From positions 3,166,181-3,230,180 of the forward strand of contig NZ_MCGV01000001.1 in assembly GCF_001705235.1 (NCBI RefSeq): DNA of 64,000 bases, in the 5' to 3' direction. Positions 27,267 through 37,526 of this stretch are shown here, piece by piece. Made by a program: the position numbers and the translations under genes. A model generated the notes under the pieces. It searched no databases, had not been told where the DNA came from, and saw nothing but the letters and a program-made list of their open reading frames with translations. Each line of letters begins with the position of its first letter. The first letter of the stretch is position 1. The stretch is from Clostridium pasteurianum. Lineage in GTDB: Bacteria > Bacillota > Clostridia > Clostridiales > Clostridiaceae.

Positions 27267-27471
27267 TTGAGTTAGGTTTGTGGTTGAAAGTCGATGCCAG
27301 TCGCAGGCAAAGCGATCCACGTAAGTTAAACAAAGTTTTAATGAGCATGGTGCGGTTTAGAAGTAAGTCCTGCCGCTTTTAAGCGAGAGTATTAGTAGTG
27401 AGAGGATAATTCCGGGTAGCGAAACTTCCAGCAGGCGAGTGTGGGGTCAAAGACCAGGTCAACTAACTTAA
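27267..27471 (+). ncRNA. raiA RNA: Probable raiA-motif structured RNA
   Basis: About 205 bases directly after comFC have no reading frame but are much more GC-rich and structured than the surroundings. A closing helix TTGAGTTAG (27267-27275) / CTAACTTAA (27463-27471) brackets blocks such as GTTGAAAGTCGATGCC, GGCAAAGCGATCCACG, CCTGCCGCTTTTAAGCG and TCCGGGTAGCGAAACTTCC. Size and position match the raiA motif RNA, which in clostridia lies near comFC and hpf (raiA) and has been linked to sporulation and aggregation. I recognise it by context and general pattern, not by alignment. Confidence 0.7.
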
Positions 27472-27695: not shown

Positions 27696-27750
27696 TTACA
27701 TTTATTGTATATTTATGATATAATTTAAAATAATGAAAATTATATCATAA
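27696..27750 (+). promoter_or_regulatory. Promoter with 14-bp inverted repeat before the RiPP protease
   Basis: TTACAT (27696) and TATAAT (27719) are 17 bases apart. The -10 lies inside TTATGATATAATTT (27713-27726), which is repeated exactly inverted at 27737-27750. A dimeric regulator bound here would block the promoter; a hairpin in the 5' leader is the alternative. Confidence 0.5.
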
Positions 27751-27793
27751 AAAGTAAAACAAAAATATTAAAAAAGGGGGAAAAAGCAATTAA

Positions 27794-29209
27794 ATGAAGA
27801 AAAGGCATATATTTTTATTTATCAATCTTATATTGTTAGTATTTTTACCTACTAACATACGCGCTTTTGCACAAAAGATTTCTACAGGCAATATAAATTT
27901 AATAATAACATATAACAATAATACTATTGATCCTAATGTGGAAAAACTAATAACAGACCTAGGGGGGCAAGTTACTTCTAAAATTCCAGAGTTAGGTACT
28001 TCAGAAGTTAAGTGTTCTCCTGAATGTATAGAAAAAATTAAAAGTTATGCAACTGTAGAAAGTATATCTCCCAATCCTGTAATAAAGATTCATGAATTAA
28101 AAGTCATACCTTTTAATGAATCAGGTAAAATTGATAATACTGATGAAGCAGACTTATTTAATTATTATCAATGGGATATTAAAGAAGTGACTGATAATGG
28201 CAAAAGTTTTTTAGAAGAGTCAGGAAATCATAATGTAGTTGTTGGAATACTAGATACAGGAGTAAATACAACTCATCCAGATTTGAAAAAAAATTTTTTG
28301 GGTGGTAAAAACTTCGTACCTAAAAATTTTGAAAATGATTCAACTGAAACAGGAGATACTAATGATATAGAAGATAGAGTTGGTCATGGTACACTTGTTG
28401 CAGGTACAATAGCTGGCAATGGAAGAATTAAGGGTGTAGCACCTAATACAGGTTTTAAATCTTATCGTATTTTTAATAAAGATAATGATACTACGGATTC
28501 AATAGCAGCTTCTGCTATAGTTAATGCAGTAAATGATAATGTTAAGGTTCTTAATTTAAGTTTTGGCGGATTCTTTATAAAGGGTAAGTGCATATTTAAG
28601 GATCCCAAGACACAAAAAATATACAACTTCAAAGGTAATAATGCATCATGTTTGTTATATAAAAAAGCTATAAGATATGCTGAAAAACATGGTGTTACTG
28701 TAGTTGCCAGTGTAGGGAATGAAGGTATTGATTGTTCAAAGTCGCAAAACATAGTGAACTATGTAAACAATGAATTTAAAGATCAAGGATTAAAATATGC
28801 AGGAGAAGGCATTGAGCTTCCAGGGGAAGCAAAAAATGTAATTACAGTATCAGCATCTAAAAGAGATGATACTATTGCAAGTTACTCTAATTATGGACAA
28901 AATGTTATAGATATAGCCGCTCCAGGTGGTGAATTAGTTGACATTAATAATATTAATAATCCTCAAAATATTTATAACTTATGCCTTAGTTCATATTTAA
29001 ATAATTCATATTTTTTTACAGAGGGAACATCTTTAGCGGCACCTAAAGTGTCTGCCGTTGCTGCTCTTATTATAAGTAAGTATGGAAATATTAAACCTAA
29101 AGAAGTAGCAAAAATAATATATAAATCTGCTGTGTCAATTAATACCCAAAATTCTAGAGAATATTTTGGACATGGAGTAATTAATGCTTATAATGCACTG
29201 GCTAAATAA
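27794..29209 (+). CDS. Exported subtilisin-like protease, candidate RiPP leader peptidase (LanP-like)
   Basis: This 471-residue S8 protease has a Sec signal peptide (about residues 1-25, ending RAFAQ) and a propeptide of the inhibitor I9 type (about 30-110). The catalytic domain has Asp154 (GILDTGV), His198 (GHGTLVAGT), oxyanion Asn in ASVGNEG and Ser413 (EGTSLAAPK). Such proteases (NisP, EpiP, ElxP types) remove leader peptides outside the cell. Here the cluster's exporter has no C39 peptidase, so a separate protease is needed. It has its own promoter and lies 370 bases before the precursor gene. Confidence 0.85.
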   Translation: MKKRHIFLFINLILLVFLPTNIRAFAQKISTGNINLIITYNNNTIDPNVEKLITDLGGQVTSKIPELGTSEVKCSPECIEKIKSYATVESISPNPVIKIHELKVIPFNESGKIDNTDEADLFNYYQWDIKEVTDNGKSFLEESGNHNVVVGILDTGVNTTHPDLKKNFLGGKNFVPKNFENDSTETGDTNDIEDRVGHGTLVAGTIAGNGRIKGVAPNTGFKSYRIFNKDNDTTDSIAASAIVNAVNDNVKVLNLSFGGFFIKGKCIFKDPKTQKIYNFKGNNASCLLYKKAIRYAEKHGVTVVASVGNEGIDCSKSQNIVNYVNNEFKDQGLKYAGEGIELPGEAKNVITVSASKRDDTIASYSNYGQNVIDIAAPGGELVDINNINNPQNIYNLCLSSYLNNSYFFTEGTSLAAPKVSAVAALIISKYGNIKPKEVAKIIYKSAVSINTQNSREYFGHGVINAYNALAK

Positions 29210-29356
29210 AATTAGTGATGTTCTTGCAATAGAAATGTTATTATTAATAGTTATTTTTGATAATATAGTAACAAAATCAATCCTTTAATATGCAATTTCA
29301 TAATGCTCACAATATTTTACAAATAAATTACCATAAAGATACTAATATTAACTTTA

Positions 29357-29404
29357 ATTACATAAATTTATTAATATTGAATTTATGTAATATTATGTTA
29401 TAAT
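29357..29404 (+). promoter_or_regulatory. Promoter and inverted repeat for the precursor operon
   Basis: TTGAAT (29377) and TATAAT (29399) are separated by 16 bases. ATTACATAAATT (29357-29368) and AATTTATGTAAT (29380-29391) are exact inverted repeats, and the second arm covers the -35. This is a probable operator. The transcript would carry a leader of about 165 bases before the precursor ATG. The rest of the 29210-29577 gap shows no gene. Confidence 0.55.
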
Positions 29405-29577
29405 AAAAATGAATTTAAGTTATTAATGTTTTTAACATACAGTTCACATTAAAGGACAAGCTAAGACTAAGATTAAAAAAATTGAAATATTACCTTAAAT
29501 TTATTTTGAGGATAATATATAGACTATATAGTTTAAAAATTCTAGAATTACAAAAATAAAAATTAGGAGGAATTATT

Positions 29578-29751
29578 ATGTTAAATGAAGATGCTTTAAA
29601 AATGGTAGGACCAACTTTTGAAGAAGTAGGAGGTAAAAATAAAGGAGCTGTAACTCCAAATTCTGCTGTTGCAGTTAGCTTAAGTTTATCACTAGCATAT
29701 TCACCAGTAGTAGTAGCATCGGTATATGCTACTACACATAGACATAAATAA
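29578..29751 (+). CDS. Cysteine-free class II lanthipeptide-like precursor peptide
   Basis: This 57-codon gene has AGGAGG eight bases before ATG. The acidic N-terminal leader MLNEDALKMVGPTFEEVGG ends in a Gly-Gly at residues 18-19. The C-terminal part has nine Ser/Thr and no Cys, so no lanthionine ring can form within it. Residues 30-42 alternate small and bulky: Ala, Ser at even positions (30, 32, 34, 36, 38, 40, 42) and Val, Leu, Tyr at odd ones. It ends with a basic tail THRHK. Different Ser codons (AGC, AGT, TCA, TCG) are used along the pattern, so the protein pattern is selected rather than being a DNA repeat. It lies directly before LanM. The true leader cut site is not visible. Confidence 0.85.
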   Translation: MLNEDALKMVGPTFEEVGGKNKGAVTPNSAVAVSLSLSLAYSPVVVASVYATTHRHK

Positions 29752-29771
29752 TAGTTATCTATTTAAAAAAC

Positions 29772-29800
29772 CACCTATAATAAAATTATAGGTGATTTTT
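29772..29800 (+). terminator. Attenuating terminator between precursor and LanM genes
   Basis: CACCTATAA / TTATAGGTG form a perfect 9-bp stem with a 5-base loop, followed by ATTTTT. Partial read-through would give many precursor transcripts per enzyme transcript, which is common in RiPP operons. Confidence 0.8.
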
Positions 29801-29828
29801 AAATATAAACAATGGGAGGAGGAATAAA

Positions 29829-32795
29829 ATGGAATTAAACTTAGCTAAAACATTAACAAATGAGCAAAAAATAGACATCTATAAAGGGAATTTATTAAAA
29901 GAAAAACAAGTAAATGAAGTAATAAATGATTGGATTAAAAATGATAATTTATTAAGTTATAATAACTTGTTAAAAAAATTATCAATAGAAGGTATTAATT
30001 TACAAGAATTTGCAAGCGTGTTAAATAAAAATAATATAAGTATAGATTATAAAAAAATAAGTTCTACTAAATGGTATGAACTATATAAAAATATAATTCA
30101 ACAATATTCTAAAAGTGATAATTTTAATTTCTATAATGAAGAATCTATAATGTATTTTTTGAATATTATGATATATTGGTGTAAAGTTCAAATGATGCAG
30201 CAAATATCTAAGTATAATAATATTAAGATCCATCAAGATATAGTTAATATAGTGCTAAATAGTATCGGAACAAATTTATTCAATGTTGCTAGTAAAACTG
30301 TAATTTATGAATACTATAATCAAGAAGAAAAAAATTTTAGGGACTATAATTTAAGTAATTTTAAAAATATAAAAGGTATAGAAAATTTTTTTAGTAAATA
30401 TCCAGTAATAGCAAAACGATTAGTTACAAAGGTAAAATATTTGTTAGAAAACTATTTAAGTTCTTTTAATAGAATAGATAGAGATTTTGAAATTATAGAG
30501 TCAACTCTAGGTATAGAAATAGGAAATATAATAACCAATATAGAAGGTAATATGGGAGATACTCATGAAAAGGGAAAATTTGTAATTCAATACGAATTTA
30601 ATAACAAAACAAAATTTGTGTATAAGCCTAAAAAACTTGCTATGGCAAAAGCTTTTTATAAAATTGTTGCATGGATAAATAAGAAAAGTGATTGTGAAAA
30701 ATTTAAAATCCCTAAAAATTATTATAATGAAGAATATACAATAGAAGAATACATTGAATCAAAGACTTGTGAAACAGAACAAGAAATTAAAAGATATTAT
30801 AAACGATTAGGTCAATTTTTAGGAATAGTATATCAGTTAAATGGAAATGATTTTCATTATGAGAATGTTATAGCAAATGGAGAATTCCCATATTTAATAG
30901 ATTTAGAAACTATTTTTACACAGCCAATACCTTTAAATAAAAGAGATATATTTGATTATTATAGTATAATTAAAAATCAAGATTCAATTATTAATACATG
31001 TTTTTTACCATCAAATACAGGACTTGCTGATGAAAAAGGTAAAGGTATTGATATAAGTGCATTATCTAATAAAAAGCAAAAATTACCTTATAAGATTTTA
31101 AGTTTAGTGGGAGATATAGATAACCCCAAATTTGAATATATTGATTTTGAAGTAGGAACGAAAAATAATATACCTTTATTAAATGGCGAAAAAGTAAATT
31201 ATGAAAATTATAAAAGTTGTATAGAAGAAGGTTTTACAGAGATAAGTAAATTTATTATTGAAAACAAATTTGAATTTTTGAAACAATTAAACATGTTTCA
31301 AGGTATAAGTGTAAGGCAATTAATTCGCAATACAAATGATTATTTTAAAATATTAGAATATGCTAGTCATCCTAAATATACAATGGATATGGCTAGTTTA
31401 GAAAAAATGTTGTATTTTATGTGGGAATACAATTTAGATGATAAAAGATGTATAACTTCTGAAATAGAAGATTTAATAAGGGATGATATACCTTTATTTA
31501 GAACGATTACTACAAGTAAAGACTTAATAGATTCAAAAGGAAAAATAATAAAAAATTATTTTGAGAAATCAGCTTTTAATCGTGTTAAAGAAAAGATTAT
31601 TAATTTTAATAAAAATGAATTAAATAAGCAATTGGATTATCTTAATATATCACTTAACAATAGTAGCAATGTTATTAATAGAAAATCAAGGATGAAAAAT
31701 AACCTATATGAATTCAATAAGACGTTGTTAAAAGATGATGGCTATATAAATTCAAATATTATGTTGAATGATATAAATAGTATAATAGAAAGCTTTTTTA
31801 TAAAATATAAGGATGAATGTATATGTCCTAATTTAATAAATGGTGATGTAAAATTAGACTTTGGATTTAAAAAGGGACTAATAGGAATATATTATTATTT
31901 ATATATGAATAATAGTTTAGACGTAAATATTCAAAAAATAAGAAATGTATTTTCTAATGAAAAAATTATTAGTTTATCAATAAGTAATAACAAGCTACAA
32001 GATTTATTAGATCTTTTAAATATTATAGAGAGAACGTTTGATAATAACTATAATGAAGATGTTTTAACATTAAGATCCAATATTATAAAAATTTTAAATG
32101 AAGAATTAATTAACAATAAAGTAAATCTTCTAGATACAATAAAGTTTATTAAGATTATTGGAGAATTATATAAAACTAATAAATCTTATGAATTGAAAAA
32201 AACCATATTAAAACTAAAAAATAATTTGGAAATTAAGTTATTGCAAGAGGGATTAATTACTCTAAAGTATAATAGCCATATTAGTACAATCGATTTGCTG
32301 GAATGTATTGATTTAATAAAAGATATATATCCTAATGAACAGTTTAGCTTTAATTTAGATTATATAAATAAGATTAATAGTGAATATTTTGAACAAATAT
32401 ATAATTTAGAATCACTAAAAATGTATAGTAATGAAGAATATAGAAATATTATAAGGAGTCTAAGTATAAATTTAAACAATACCTATATAGAACGTTATAA
32501 TTTAAAACAATGTGTATTTAAAGTAGTAAATGAAAATGAAATTGATGAAAATATTATATGTATACTAGATATTTTAATAAGTTGTTACACTAAGAGTGAA
32601 GATAAAGAAATAAAAAGTTTACTTGATAAAAAATTCAAACAATTAGTCCAATATTATACTATTACTAATAATTATCCAGTTGATGAGATGAATTATTTTA
32701 AAAATTTATCTATTGGAAATGGAATAAGTGGAATTGGATATGAAATATTACGATATCGAAACAATAAAATACCAGATGTACTAAATTTGTTCTAG
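29829..32795 (+). CDS. Class II lanthipeptide synthetase LanM with intact dehydratase and degenerate cyclase
   Basis: This is a 988-residue LanM. The dehydratase half keeps the kinase-like residues that phosphorylate and eliminate Ser/Thr: GDTH at 243-246, YKPK at 265-268, DFHYEN at 341-346, IDLE at 357-360, and the elimination motif RQLIRNTNDY. Their spacing equals that of CylM as I recall it. The C-terminal half (about 640-988) keeps the LanC-like start FGFKKGLIGIYYYL and end GNGISGIGYEILRYRNNKIPDVL. It has no WCxG and no CHG, so the three zinc ligands used to activate Cys thiols are missing. It should dehydrate but not cyclise, in agreement with the Cys-free precursor. Confidence 0.9.
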   Translation: MELNLAKTLTNEQKIDIYKGNLLKEKQVNEVINDWIKNDNLLSYNNLLKKLSIEGINLQEFASVLNKNNISIDYKKISSTKWYELYKNIIQQYSKSDNFNFYNEESIMYFLNIMIYWCKVQMMQQISKYNNIKIHQDIVNIVLNSIGTNLFNVASKTVIYEYYNQEEKNFRDYNLSNFKNIKGIENFFSKYPVIAKRLVTKVKYLLENYLSSFNRIDRDFEIIESTLGIEIGNIITNIEGNMGDTHEKGKFVIQYEFNNKTKFVYKPKKLAMAKAFYKIVAWINKKSDCEKFKIPKNYYNEEYTIEEYIESKTCETEQEIKRYYKRLGQFLGIVYQLNGNDFHYENVIANGEFPYLIDLETIFTQPIPLNKRDIFDYYSIIKNQDSIINTCFLPSNTGLADEKGKGIDISALSNKKQKLPYKILSLVGDIDNPKFEYIDFEVGTKNNIPLLNGEKVNYENYKSCIEEGFTEISKFIIENKFEFLKQLNMFQGISVRQLIRNTNDYFKILEYASHPKYTMDMASLEKMLYFMWEYNLDDKRCITSEIEDLIRDDIPLFRTITTSKDLIDSKGKIIKNYFEKSAFNRVKEKIINFNKNELNKQLDYLNISLNNSSNVINRKSRMKNNLYEFNKTLLKDDGYINSNIMLNDINSIIESFFIKYKDECICPNLINGDVKLDFGFKKGLIGIYYYLYMNNSLDVNIQKIRNVFSNEKIISLSISNNKLQDLLDLLNIIERTFDNNYNEDVLTLRSNIIKILNEELINNKVNLLDTIKFIKIIGELYKTNKSYELKKTILKLKNNLEIKLLQEGLITLKYNSHISTIDLLECIDLIKDIYPNEQFSFNLDYINKINSEYFEQIYNLESLKMYSNEEYRNIIRSLSINLNNTYIERYNLKQCVFKVVNENEIDENIICILDILISCYTKSEDKEIKSLLDKKFKQLVQYYTITNNYPVDEMNYFKNLSIGNGISGIGYEILRYRNNKIPDVLNLF

Positions 32796-32837
32796 TTAAT
32801 TTTTATGTAATTAAAAAGTGTTAAGTAGGAGGTAAGT

Positions 32838-33557
32838 ATGAAAAAAATATTAGCAGTTATAGGAAGTAGAAAGGGAGAAAATTCTTATACATATAAATTT
32901 ACTAAGTTAATATTAGATAAATTAATAATTAAAGATAAAGATATAAAATATGAAATAGTTTCTCCGGATAAATATAATATAAAACCGTGTAGAGGTTGTA
33001 ATAATTGCTTTTTTAAAGGATATTGTACTCAGGATGATAAAGACGATATGAATGTAATCAAAGAAAAAATGTTGAATGCTAATTTAATTATTTTAGGAAG
33101 TCCTGTTTATGCTCATAATGTAAGCGGGGATATGAAAATTTTTATAGATAGGCTTTCTTATTGGTTACATATTTTTAAGTTATCTAATAAAAAATTCGTT
33201 ACAATTACAACTTCATCATCTAATGGGAATATATATGTAAATGATTATTTAAAAAAAGTATTAAGTTTTATGGGTGCTGTAGATATATTAGATATAGAAG
33301 TTACGACTATGTCTCCAAATTTATTTCATGATGATGAATTTATGCAAAATGAAGTTACAAGTTATGTTGACTTAATTTGTAATGAATTAAATAGTTCCAC
33401 TTATATTTCAACAGAACTTCAAGAAAAAGAATTTAGAAATTTAAAAAATATTATATCGTTATATGACAAAGATAATGCAGAATATTTATATTGGCAAAAT
33501 AGTGGATTAAAAGATTGTGAAAGTTACCAAGAATATTTGCTTAAATCAAAGTTATAA
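32838..33557 (+). CDS. Flavodoxin-fold NAD(P)H-dependent reductase, candidate dehydroamino-acid reductase
   Basis: This 239-residue protein of the NADPH-dependent FMN reductase / iron-sulfur flavoprotein type has an N-terminal FMN phosphate loop GSRKGENSYT. The Cys cluster CRGCNNCFFKGYCTQDD follows, then the second FMN loop LGSPVYAHNVSGDMKIFIDRL. AGGAGGT precedes the ATG, 43 bases after lanM. In other clusters, reductases called LanJ hydrogenate Dha and Dhb to D-Ala and D-Abu. This fold is not the zinc-dependent LtnJ type, so it would be a distinct LanJ solution. The reductase activity on peptides is an inference from context. Confidence 0.75.
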   Translation: MKKILAVIGSRKGENSYTYKFTKLILDKLIIKDKDIKYEIVSPDKYNIKPCRGCNNCFFKGYCTQDDKDDMNVIKEKMLNANLIILGSPVYAHNVSGDMKIFIDRLSYWLHIFKLSNKKFVTITTSSSNGNIYVNDYLKKVLSFMGAVDILDIEVTTMSPNLFHDDEFMQNEVTSYVDLICNELNSSTYISTELQEKEFRNLKNIISLYDKDNAEYLYWQNSGLKDCESYQEYLLKSKL

Positions 33558-33584
33558 AAAATTATGAAAGGTAAACTAAAAAAT

Positions 33585-34349
33585 ATGGTTTCTCTAAAAA
33601 ATGTTACGAAAAAATATAATGATTTTGTTGCAGTTAATAATCTTAATATTGAAATTAAAGATGGTAGTATTGTAGGGTTAATAGGACCTAACGGTGCAGG
33701 AAAAACTACGACAATAAGTATGATAATTGGTATTCTCGATATGTCAGAAGGGGATATTATAATAAATGGCAACTCTATAAAAGATAAGCCTATGGAAATA
33801 AAGAAACAGATTGGGTATGTATCAGATGATGAAAATCAACTACTAAGTTTAAAAGCTATAGAGTATTTGAATTTTGCAGCAGATATGTACAGAGTGCCTG
33901 AAGCTGAAAGAAAAAAGCAAATATTAAGTTTAAGTAAGAGATTTGACATACAGAATGATTTAAACACTAGAATGGACAAGTTTTCAAAGGGAATGAAGCA
34001 GAAAATAATGATAATAGCATCTTTGATTCACAGCCCTAAAGTTTGGATTTTAGATGAACCTTTTACAGGATTAGATCCAAAAACTTCATATGAATTAAAA
34101 GAATTTATGAAAGAATATGCAGGCAGGGGGAATATAATACTTTTATCGTCTCACATACTTGAGATTGTAGAAAATCTATGTGACGAAGTTATTTTGATTA
34201 AAAAGGGTAAAACATTATATTTTGGAGGCTTGAAGGAGCTAAAAGAAAAATTCAACAACATGTATAGTCTAGAAAAAATTTATATGAAGGTGTTTGAGGA
34301 TGGAAAAACTAGCGAATCTAAAAGAGTTAGTCTCTCTGGTGAAAATTAA
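33585..34349 (+). CDS. ABC transporter ATPase, probable immunity/export subunit
   Basis: This ATPase of about 254 residues has Walker A GPNGAGKTT, signature FSKGMKQKI and Walker B VWILDEPFTGLDP. ATG 33585 starts the typical MVSLKNVTKKY; an in-frame ATG at 33564 is possible. Its end overlaps the permease start by 50 bases, so the two are a pair. In lanthipeptide clusters such pairs (LanFEG type) protect the producer; general ABC-2 export is the alternative. Confidence 0.85.
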   Translation: MVSLKNVTKKYNDFVAVNNLNIEIKDGSIVGLIGPNGAGKTTTISMIIGILDMSEGDIIINGNSIKDKPMEIKKQIGYVSDDENQLLSLKAIEYLNFAADMYRVPEAERKKQILSLSKRFDIQNDLNTRMDKFSKGMKQKIMIIASLIHSPKVWILDEPFTGLDPKTSYELKEFMKEYAGRGNIILLSSHILEIVENLCDEVILIKKGKTLYFGGLKELKEKFNNMYSLEKIYMKVFEDGKTSESKRVSLSGEN

Positions 34350-35874
34350 ATTAATAAGTAGAAGCAATATAATTTTAGGTGAAGAAAAGCGTACAAGCAG
34401 GATAATAGATATAGTAAGCTTATTCATTATTTTTATTGCGTTAACGGAAGTATCATTGGTAAGAATATTTAATGTTTTACATTTAAGCAATAATGAAATA
34501 ATGATTTTTAATTCAATTATAAACATACAATTAATTGCTACAACTCTTTTTATGTTTATAAGTATAATAAATACATTTTATTTAGCTAGTGACTGGAAAC
34601 AAATGATGGTTTATCCAATCAAATCGGGAAATTTATTGCTATCTAAATGTGTTCTTTGTTATTTTTCCAGTATGCTAATTTCAATATTTGCACTGATATT
34701 TTTATTTAGTTATGGAATTTTAGCTAATGAGGATATCATTTACTATTTGCAGTTGATATTGTATGAAATTATTATAACTGCTGTTCCAACTGTATATATT
34801 GTATTAACATCCTTAACAGTATTATGGATTATATCAGTAATAAAAAGCTCAGAAAGTAAAGATAAAAAGAATAAGTGGTTAATCGTAGTTGATTTAGTAG
34901 TAATAATTTTAACATGCATACTTTTTAAATTTACATTGAATAATCATATTAAAGTTAGTACCCTGTTATTTAATATTTTCTTTAGTGGAAATCAAAGATC
35001 AGAAATATTTGTGAAATTTATATTAGCACTATTCATAATTGTGATTGGTTGTATTGGATTTTATCTAGTTGGCGGGAATGTATATTTAACAATTATGAAA
35101 AGTGGGGCGTTTAGGTCAAAAGATTCTAAGAAAATAGAATTACATTTAACGGGATATGATTTCAAATTAAGAAATCCCATTGTTTCGAATATTATACGTG
35201 ATGTTAAGCTAATAATGAGAATACCAGTGCTGCGTACTAATTGTATTATGGGGAATGCTGTAATATCAGCCATTTCTGTAATTATCTTAATACTATTTAG
35301 AAAGCAGGTTGTTGGTTTTGCAAATGCCATGGGAGCTGGTGGAAAAAGTTTTTTATTAGTTTTGTGGCTTTTAAGTTTTGAACTTCTTAATTTTACGGCT
35401 GCAACATCATTTTCACGTGAAGGAAGAGCTTTAAATCAATTTAAAGTGTATCCAGTAGGAAATAAGAAAATTCTATTTTCAAAGATTTGTGTAGGTATTT
35501 TAACTAATATTTTTACGTTTATAAGCACAAATGTATTAATAGTCTTAATTTCATTAGGCTTTGTCCAGTTTATTTTGTTTGAAGCAGTCATAATTGTATA
35601 TATGATAGGAATAACAATAATTCAAATTGAAAGAGATATAAATAGTATAGAATTAAAATGGATTGATATTAAAGATTTATTTCAGATTGGTGTCATTTTT
35701 AAAGTTGTAAAGCCGTACTTTATACTTACTATGTTACCAATTATATATGCTATTTTATTTTATAGGTTATTTCATATTGAATTGACAGAGTTTTTAAATT
35801 CAGTTTTTTTAATTTTAATGGTTTGTATTTATTCTATCTATAGTTTTAAAAAGATAATTAATAATATGGGATAG
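34300..35874 (+). CDS. ABC-2-type permease, partner of the preceding ATPase
   Basis: This protein of about 524 residues has many hydrophobic segments (around residues 40-60, 80-105, 120-150, 160-185, 205-225, 245-270, 325-350, 360-380, 415-445, 480-515), arranged as in single-gene ABC-2 permeases of doubled size. ATG 34300 (MEKLANLKEL) is preferred to an upstream TTG. Translational coupling with the ATPase is likely. Substrate unknown; immunity to, or export of, the cluster peptide is the contextual guess. Confidence 0.75.
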   Translation: MEKLANLKELVSLVKIKLISRSNIILGEEKRTSRIIDIVSLFIIFIALTEVSLVRIFNVLHLSNNEIMIFNSIINIQLIATTLFMFISIINTFYLASDWKQMMVYPIKSGNLLLSKCVLCYFSSMLISIFALIFLFSYGILANEDIIYYLQLILYEIIITAVPTVYIVLTSLTVLWIISVIKSSESKDKKNKWLIVVDLVVIILTCILFKFTLNNHIKVSTLLFNIFFSGNQRSEIFVKFILALFIIVIGCIGFYLVGGNVYLTIMKSGAFRSKDSKKIELHLTGYDFKLRNPIVSNIIRDVKLIMRIPVLRTNCIMGNAVISAISVIILILFRKQVVGFANAMGAGGKSFLLVLWLLSFELLNFTAATSFSREGRALNQFKVYPVGNKKILFSKICVGILTNIFTFISTNVLIVLISLGFVQFILFEAVIIVYMIGITIIQIERDINSIELKWIDIKDLFQIGVIFKVVKPYFILTMLPIIYAILFYRLFHIELTEFLNSVFLILMVCIYSIYSFKKIINNMG

Positions 35875-35885
35875 GGGAATTTACA

Positions 35886-37526
35886 ATGAATATACTAAAA
35901 TTTTCAAATAAATATATAAATAAACCTAAATTAATTATGTATTTACTTATGTCTTTGGTAGCTTGGAGCATATCAATGTACTTACCTTTGGTAAATGGAA
36001 CTCTCATAGATTTATTAACTGGAAAGCATTTAAAATCAAGTTCATATGGTTTGTATAGTATATATGTTATTTTGTTAATTATATCAATATTGAGTGGATT
36101 AAATATAGTGTTAACATATTTTATAAATGTTTCATATGTTAAGTTATCATCAAAAACATCCTTTAAAATGAGTTATTACATATTAGATCATATAAAGAAA
36201 CTGCCAATATTTTTTTTCTACAATCAAAATGCGGCATATTTAAATCAAAGGGTAAATACAGATACAACAGCAGTGTCACAGTTTGTTCTAGATGAAATAA
36301 AAAACTTAATTGTTAATATTTTATCACTAATTATAAGTTCAATTATATTAATGAGGATAAATTTAAAAATAGCCTCAGTATTAATAATTTTAATACCAAT
36401 ATATTTAGCGCTATATTTCTTTTTTAAAAAAAGGTTATATAAATTAAGTTATAAATATAAAGAATGTCAGAACTTATATTTTGGCGAAATTAATTCACAA
36501 CTAGAAAATATAAAATTTGTCAAATTCAATTCATTATATTCTATACTTAATAAAAATTTGAAAAATAAGTTTGGTATGGTTTTTAATGCTATTGTACAGT
36601 TAACAAGAGCAAATAACATGTTTTCTAATTCAGGAATGTTGATTACAGTGCTGGCAAATGTTCTAATATTACTAATTGGAGTACAACAGATAATAAAAGG
36701 TAAGCTAACTATAGGACAATTTACTATAATTAGTACATATTTTAATACAATTATAGGTGGAATAAATTATTGTTTGTCATTCATGGAAAATTATCAAAAC
36801 ACTTTGGTATCTTACAATAGAATAGAAGAATTATTAAACTTACAAAGTGAAAAAAATGGAATAAAGACAATAAAAAATATAGAAAGTATTTCAGTTGAAA
36901 ATTTGTTCTTTAAATATCAAGATGGAAAGAGTGTTGTGTCAAATTTAAATTGTGAATTAAAGAAAGGTTTTATTTATAGAATAGTAGGTGAAAATGGTAC
37001 TGGAAAAAGTTCTTTAATTAATATTATAACGGGTTTATATAATGGGACTTATGATGGTGATATTAAATATAATGGAATAAACATATTAGATCTTAATATG
37101 TATGAAGTTAGAAAAGATTTAATTGGAATTGTTGAACAAGAACCAACTTTATTAAAAGATAGTATTGTAAATAATATAACTTATAATTTAGACAATTATG
37201 ACCCTAAGTTACTAAAAACACTAGTTAATAAGATCAAATTGAATAAATTTGTTTCAAAGCTAGATGATGGTTTAAATACTAATATATCTGAAAGAAGTTG
37301 TAATATTTCTGGTGGTGAAAAGCAGAAAATAAGTATAATAAGAACTTTATTAAAAAATCCTGATGTGATTATTTTAGACGAAGCAAATTCTGCTTTAGAT
37401 TATGATAGTACATATCAATTAAATTTAATATTGGAAAAAGAAAAAGAAAATAAAATAATAATATTAATATCTCACAGTAATGTTTTTGATGATATTGTAG
37501 ACTTTAATATAAATTTAGAAAAATAA
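35886..37526 (+). CDS. ABC exporter (transmembrane plus ATPase) without C39 peptidase
   Basis: This 546-residue type IV ABC exporter half-transporter has a transmembrane region of about six helices (residues 1-300) and then an ATPase domain with Walker A GENGTGKSSL, signature NISGGEKQKI and Walker B VIILDEANSALD. It begins directly with the first transmembrane helices and has no N-terminal Cys/His peptidase, unlike typical class II LanT proteins. It is the likely exporter of the modified precursor, leaving leader removal to the S8 protease. It is the last gene of the RiPP operon. Confidence 0.85.
   Translation: MNILKFSNKYINKPKLIMYLLMSLVAWSISMYLPLVNGTLIDLLTGKHLKSSSYGLYSIYVILLIISILSGLNIVLTYFINVSYVKLSSKTSFKMSYYILDHIKKLPIFFFYNQNAAYLNQRVNTDTTAVSQFVLDEIKNLIVNILSLIISSIILMRINLKIASVLIILIPIYLALYFFFKKRLYKLSYKYKECQNLYFGEINSQLENIKFVKFNSLYSILNKNLKNKFGMVFNAIVQLTRANNMFSNSGMLITVLANVLILLIGVQQIIKGKLTIGQFTIISTYFNTIIGGINYCLSFMENYQNTLVSYNRIEELLNLQSEKNGIKTIKNIESISVENLFFKYQDGKSVVSNLNCELKKGFIYRIVGENGTGKSSLINIITGLYNGTYDGDIKYNGINILDLNMYEVRKDLIGIVEQEPTLLKDSIVNNITYNLDNYDPKLLKTLVNKIKLNKFVSKLDDGLNTNISERSCNISGGEKQKISIIRTLLKNPDVIILDEANSALDYDSTYQLNLILEKEKENKIIILISHSNVFDDIVDFNINLEK

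Follow-up and report, generated by a model that had tools for sequence, protein, structure and literature searches.

The gene cluster for lactocin S (las, Latilactobacillus sakei plasmid pL13-1) resembles in general layout a putative cluster for a ribosomally synthesized and post-translationally modified peptide (RiPP) at 27794-37526 of the 64-kb stretch of Clostridium pasteurianum DNA studied here (the window, to whose positions all coordinates refer; the host genome has 4.68 Mb). The window cluster probably serves to make a linear peptide, free of thioether rings, by a dedicated route of dehydration and reduction: its precursor has no Cys, and its LanM-type enzyme keeps the dehydratase residues and has lost the cyclase zinc site. 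Both clusters hold, in this order, genes for a precursor, a LanM, a flavoprotein of family PF03358 (239 residues in las) and an ATP-binding cassette (ABC) exporter without a C39 peptidase (535 residues in las), along with S8 peptidase and ABC genes; in las the latter are placed later, whereas the window has two ABC genes between flavoprotein and exporter and its S8 gene upstream. The las gene letters used here (LasM, LasA) are our assignment, and lactocin S reportedly contains D-Ala. LasM, 25% identical to the window LanM over 437 residues, keeps the zinc motifs WCRG and MCHG, and LasA has two Cys; the window has neither a zinc-bearing LanM nor a Cys pair in its precursor.

A precedent named already in the preliminary description of this DNA is bicereucin (Bacillus cereus SJ1), whose second peptide is indeed Cys-free with several D-amino acids (PMC10502873) and which is made with LanJB (PMC11519912). 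Bicereucin consists of two peptides, one with lanthionine, whereas the window has one peptide and no zinc site; given the lanthionine-bearing partner, we infer that the bicereucin LanM must cyclise. As a novelty in its own right the reductase type is rejected, since PF03358-type flavin mononucleotide (FMN) reductases in LanM clusters are the known LanJB kind and reduce dehydroalanine (Dha) and dehydrobutyrine (Dhb) to D-residues (PMC7268733; PMC7794033; PMC11519912). Nor is a Cys-free D-amino-acid peptide new in itself, the second (beta) peptide of bicereucin being one (PMC10502873), and the general layout is known from lactocin S. No class II cluster that stands alone, is Cys-free and combines LanJB with a zinc-less LanM appeared among the literature titles and abstract beginnings listed, a scope outside which subscription papers mostly lie.

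If an earlier system lessens the novelty of the cluster, it is most likely lah, of Lachnospiraceae bacterium C6A11, whose LahM1 and LahM2 may lack the zinc ligands. Both are described as unusual class II synthetases (PMC10373908), the title of the original lah paper, as it stands in a reference list, mentions a dehydratase, and lah is set apart from the window through its Nif11 leaders and methyltransferase (PMC6363468; PMC11285071). LanM-like proteins of the CA_C0082 type, from agr loci, have lost the zinc site, as the window LanM has, but they also lack the dehydratase residues and have only 670-728 residues (PMC10301443); the window LanM, with 988 residues, is not shortened, has its dehydratase intact and lies in a cluster where no regulator or kinase frame was seen. 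The dehydrazole LanMbC enzyme of carnazolamide (CcaM) works with YcaO on an azole-bearing peptide, and LanMbC proteins are marked by a class III-type cyclase domain. In the window, no YcaO family match was obtained among the seven cluster proteins, and the C-terminal half of LanM aligns with class II cyclases in a comparison against a class II profile. With no Cys and no zinc cyclase, the window system would fall outside the definition of a lanthipeptide and would act like the front half of a lanthipeptide pathway joined to a LanJB step.

Precursor, LanM-type enzyme and reductase

The features that carry this reading are as follows.

29578..29751, + strand: precursor peptide, 57 residues, no Cys (open reading frame; leader residues 1-19, assumed, and core residues 20-57)
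29829..32795, + strand: LanM-type enzyme, 988 residues, without the cyclase zinc site (PF13575 1.4e-91; TIGR03897 457 bits)
30399..31505, + strand: DUF4135 dehydratase region, Pfam match residues 191-559, catalytic residues intact
31629..32792, + strand: C-terminal domain of cyclase descent, residues 601-988, without its zinc ligands (alignment, dN/dS)
32838..33557, + strand: FMN-reductase-like (LanJB-like) protein, predicted to convert Dha/Dhb to D-Ala/D-Abu (D-2-aminobutyrate) (PF03358 1.4e-24)

In an alignment of 46 LanM rows the window enzyme retains all ten dehydratase residues examined (D244, H246, K266, D341, H343, N346, D358, E360, R496 and T502), which together with its PF13575 match marks it as having the DUF4135 dehydratase of a class II synthetase; the best TIGR03897 stretch spans residues 119-644 of 988. 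The three zinc-ligand columns, which we take to be the Cys of WCxG and the Cys and His of CHG, hold no Cys or His in the window LanM, and the WCxG stretch is a gap, so that the LanC-type Cys/Cys/His site is absent. The preliminary description was correct on both halves. The closest solved structure is CylM (5dzt, 6e-64), matched by residues 55-630 and by a weak stretch at 929-985.

The C-terminal half descends from class II cyclases. A profile of six zinc-site-deficient domains aligns with 27 canonical class II cyclase domains over 363 columns (99.5%, E 5e-23), an extent for which all six members were needed, a profile from the window, C. hydrogenum and genome G197 alone aligning over just 75 C-terminal columns. 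Between the window and Clostridium hydrogenum the ratio of nonsynonymous to synonymous substitution rates (dN/dS) is 0.267 for the dehydratase half and 0.272 for the cyclase-derived half; the two halves evolve alike, which argues that the cyclase-derived domain is maintained, and the value of 0.272 (purifying selection) rules out a functionless domain. A precedent for a retained domain that does not cyclise comes from carnazolamide, whose biosynthesis depends for dehydration on a cyclase-like domain that is zinc-independent, although no ring is made (PMC10676384).

The absence of Cys from the precursor, also seen in the preliminary description, is not significant by itself in a single peptide of 57 residues. 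Together with the absence of a cyclase zinc site, it implies that no thioether would form inside the peptide. The core has six Ser and three Thr, and the C. hydrogenum homologue, at the same cluster position, likewise has 57 residues and no Cys. Comparison of the two gives dN/dS of 0.215 for the leader and 1.82 for the core (38 codons; permutation p 0.0001 for the difference in substitution), from which the leader appears constrained while the core diversifies. Within this changing core, C. hydrogenum retains Ser/Thr at seven of the nine Ser/Thr positions of the window (3.3 expected, p 0.006), as expected if those residues are modified. A second, Cys-containing precursor, which the preliminary description had named as a possible counter-finding, did not appear: the host genome gave one match to the window precursor in a search at E 5 and has only two PF13575 places. 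The other of these (L002/L038, contig C1 at ~2.197 Mb) encodes a 679-residue LanM-like/DUF4135 protein that adjoins LytTR response-regulator and kinase-like frames and resembles the agr-linked CA_C0082-type proteins (PMC10301443).

The reductase adjoins LanM in the window. It shares 45-72% identity with its counterparts in G184, G197 and C. hydrogenum and 31-43% with 11 further LanJB-like neighbours of LanM genes; with the lactocin S flavoprotein, also PF03358, the identity is 31% across 131 residues. Its closest solved structure is SP1951 (1sqs, 6e-30), and its dN/dS against C. hydrogenum is 0.30.

Relatives and the loss of the zinc site

LanM searches gave matches at each level from genus (2 of 4 genomes) through family (22 of 206), order (19 of 225) and class (12 of 391) to phylum (3 of 398), and further searches in 3 of 13 genomes in the family of G776 and 25 of 397 in that of G572; these sets overlap, their E limits differ, and the relatives found are a lower bound because few first-look candidates were taken per genome. 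A scan of genome contigs returned only one relative. C. hydrogenum CUEA01 (L033, G003) has the precursor, a 71% identical LanM, the reductase, the ABC pair and the exporter in window order, at another place in its genome, after a PF00731 gene; against it the window LanM, LanJB, ABC pair and exporter are intact, with dN/dS of 0.07-0.32.

Among the LanMs with motifs read, we found at least ten that are zinc-site-deficient, in nine genomes. None of the three ligands is present in eight of them (window, C. hydrogenum, G197, G184, G776, two in G982, and G1064), and one of three is present in G111a and G572; in each of G1064, G111 and G982 a further LanM, at another locus, has its zinc site intact. 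A precursor with at least two Cys in its C-terminal half occurs in 0/10 zinc-site-deficient and 25/27 zinc-intact clusters (Fisher p 1.9e-7, a test that treats clusters as independent though they are phylogenetically related). All called precursors are Cys-free in that half in 5/10 against 1/27 clusters, as are 14/21 against 5/55 individual peptides. LanJB adjoins LanM or lies one gene away in nine of the ten zinc-site-deficient cases and lies within 3 kb in 11 of 29 zinc-intact regions. What exceeds chance is thus the association of Cys absence with zinc-site loss, not Cys absence alone.

These counts rest on precursors chosen by eye from frame lists. Three zinc-intact regions in which no precursor was found were dropped (L090 in G490, L122 in G555, L128 in G014), as was a 742-residue second LanM-like frame of G162 (L127) flagged as zinc-less; Priestia DSM 32 was included, and Priestia pBMG4 and lactocin S were excluded. 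G145, flagged as zinc-less by a motif pattern, has Cys in all three columns and was counted as zinc-intact; moving it gives 0/11 against 25/26. G982b and G399b nearly duplicate G776 and G399a and have LanM frames that seem disrupted close to the N-terminus; without them the comparison stands at 0/9 against 24/26. For the 28 loci L134-L161 of the G572-family search motifs were read in 11 (10 zinc-intact and one zinc-less, G1064), and only G1064 entered the count, which favours the association.

Several similar arrangements were seen in passing. G572 (L086, L130) combines a zinc-site-deficient LanM, LanJB and a 712-residue ABC exporter with at least seven precursors of similar leader and diverse cores, five of the seven without Cys. 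The clusters of G982 (L092) and G776 (L087) are very similar; the G982 LanM is apparently split into frames of 159 and 836 residues, and a repeated 414-residue frame nearby looks transposase-like by eye. The G1064 precursor (L162 6570-10025) has a Ser- and His-rich core with 25 Ser/Thr in its C-terminal half, and the cluster could be the source of a Dha-rich peptide.

Some observations weigh against a ring-free dehydration-reduction pathway as we read it. The window LanM gives no LANC_like (PF05147) Pfam match at E 0.1, a match that is obtained for the zinc-site-deficient LanMs of G1064, G572 and G776, and a structure model of the C-terminal domain from two sequences was set aside as too poor (mean predicted local distance difference test score, pLDDT, 58.6); searching the PDB with the predicted model yielded nothing at or below E 0.001. 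The bootstrap interval for pN/pS of the core, 0.90-3.01, includes 1. G1064 shows that reduction is not obligatory: it pairs a zinc-less LanM with a Cys-free precursor, and a profile search to E 10 found no LanJB across 19 kb. Conversely, G145 (L129 6339-12972) has LanJB and four Nif11-type precursors (Nif11 by Pfam for one) that are Cys-free over their last 60 residues, and its LanM keeps Cys at all three ligand columns, so zinc-site loss is not required for Cys-free precursors with LanJB. Single-Cys precursors occur in G111a, G572, G776 and G982, and two of the G982 precursors have two Cys over their whole length. Given these exceptions, the full chain is a pattern of the window, C. hydrogenum, G197 and G184 and not a strict law. 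Moreover, all ten zinc-site-deficient LanMs belong to one broad LanM clade.

That clade has support of 100/99 in the first tree, which lacked G1064. The zinc-intact G399 lies inside it as sister to G111a (100/100), and Priestia DSM 32 belongs to the same 12-row clade with weaker support (86/97, not a starred branch). A single loss of the zinc site was rejected: because these two enzymes nest in the clade, a tree that keeps all ten zinc-site-deficient LanMs in one group fails the approximately unbiased test (p-AU 3.6e-6), with the caveats that branches are long and that the tested group was defined after the first tree. The starred branches force only two changes, for which the alternative is one loss and a regain in G399, and the residues that replace the ligands differ between branches. 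The tree is most simply read as two or more losses of the zinc site, unless a regain took place in G399, within a lineage whose members mostly have LanJB beside them.

Protease, transport and genomic setting

The remaining features of the cluster, in which the S8 gene lies upstream of the block from precursor to exporter at 29578-37526, are these.

27794..29209, + strand: secreted S8 (subtilase) protease, 471 residues, candidate leader peptidase (PF00082 6e-56)
29772..29794, + strand: possible partial terminator, a hairpin with a T-run in the gap from precursor to LanM (terminator scan)
33564..34349, + strand: ABC ATPase, probably of a self-protection pump (PF00005 3.8e-29; TIGR03740 155 bits, cut-off 310)
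34294..35874, + strand: permease of the ABC pair, 526 residues from a TTG start (open reading frame; the true start may be further in)
35886..37526, + strand: ABC exporter without an N-terminal C39 peptidase, 546 residues (PF00664 and PF00005)

The reductase, ABC pair and C39-less exporter of the preliminary description are thus all in place (PF03358, PF00005, PF00664). The exported S8 protease that it listed is present as well, with a hydrophobic N-terminal signal read by eye, but not every related cluster has it: homologues lie inside the G184 cluster (43%) and, away from RiPP genes, in G002 (52%), and none was found in C. hydrogenum or G197 at E 1e-10. The ABC ATPase has a dN/dS of 0.07 against C. 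hydrogenum. The permease has no Pfam match; its homologue in C. hydrogenum (65%) stands at the same place, and a frame of like size adjoins an ABC ATPase in G197. No peptidase C39 domain was matched by Pfam on the window exporter, and the exporters of C. hydrogenum and G197 likewise lack it.

A hairpin after the precursor gene is expected in lantibiotic operons, where the precursor is made in excess, and the gap between precursor and LanM (29751-29815) folds with a z of -4.6 against shuffles. A promoter scan of the window locus gave matches at chance level, and no regulator or kinase was seen among the cluster frames. The 2-kb blocks between 28 and 38 kb have a lower G+C content (0.216-0.269) than all other blocks of the window (0.278-0.344). 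Upstream, between a ComF-like gene (by eye) and the S8 protease gene, lies a raiA RNA (27267-27471; RF03072 at 201 bits, gathering score 101).

Proposed pathway and its alternatives

On the proposed pathway, the leader would deliver the precursor to LanM, whose kinase-like half would phosphorylate core Ser and Thr and eliminate to give Dha and Dhb, while the former cyclase domain may be retained as a structural or substrate-holding part. The LanJB-like flavoenzyme would then reduce some or all of the Dha and Dhb to D-Ala and D-Abu, the C39-less exporter would secrete the peptide, its leader would be cut off outside the cell by a protease that may be the S8 enzyme, and the ABC pair would protect the producer. 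The sequence shows the gene set, the intact dehydratase residues, the missing ligands, the Cys-free precursor and the pattern of selection; from these we infer each chemical step, as well as the D-configuration, an antimicrobial role and the identity of the leader protease. The window LanM is likely to dehydrate its precursor, and family and neighbourhood make a later reduction to D-residues probable. The abandonment of cyclisation, as the preliminary description held, is well supported by the missing Cys, the missing zinc site and the same coupling in relatives.

Dehydration could also be the only modification, giving a Dha/Dhb-rich linear peptide, with the flavoprotein serving something else, such as another redox step. 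The G1064 cluster, with its Ser-rich Cys-free precursor and no LanJB in a 19-kb stretch, fits this, but LanJB stands by LanM in nine of ten zinc-site-deficient cases, the flavoprotein family is that of reductases known to act on Dha/Dhb (PMC7268733), and the window flavoprotein is under constraint at its dN/dS of 0.30; we regard this as improbable. Somewhat less probable still is a two-peptide system of the bicereucin type, to which the window would contribute one peptide and another locus the ring-bearing one. Bicereucin does pair a ringed with a Cys-free D-amino-acid peptide (PMC10502873). Against such a system speak the single precursor match in the host genome at E 5, its only other PF13575 place being that of the 679-residue LanM-like protein, and the same single-precursor layout in C. 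hydrogenum. To the eye the window core nonetheless resembles lactocin S and beta-peptides.

The purifying selection on the C-terminal domain would also suit a zinc-free domain that forms other crosslinks or adducts onto Dha, for instance with His, Lys or an external thiol as the nucleophile, and basic residues do end the cores of the window, C. hydrogenum, G184 and G197. Basic tails are, however, common in membrane-active peptides, and no conserved nucleophile position was seen in an alignment of five precursors, which makes such chemistry very unlikely. A decaying, non-functional cluster, as zinc-site loss and a Cys-free precursor might suggest, is scarcely credible when the genes for LanM, LanJB, ABC pair and exporter are whole and, in comparison with C. 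hydrogenum, constrained by purifying selection (dN/dS 0.07-0.32), and the gene set is kept at different genomic places.

A ring-free dehydration-reduction pathway in the window may also be a stand-alone example of something wider: a lanthionine-free branch of class II RiPPs in which the zinc site was lost repeatedly, the cyclase domain was re-employed to hold substrate or present it to LanJB, and precursors shed Cys to become linear D-amino-acid peptides, a proposal that we hold to be evenly balanced. If true, ribosomal peptides rich in D-Ala and D-Abu would be made without ring chemistry by enzymes freed from cyclisation, which would offer natural means of placing D-residues in linear peptides and natural test cases for why LanM dehydratases depend on a cyclase-like domain that has ceased to cyclise. 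It would also suggest that genome-mining rules expecting Cys in the core would pass over such systems.

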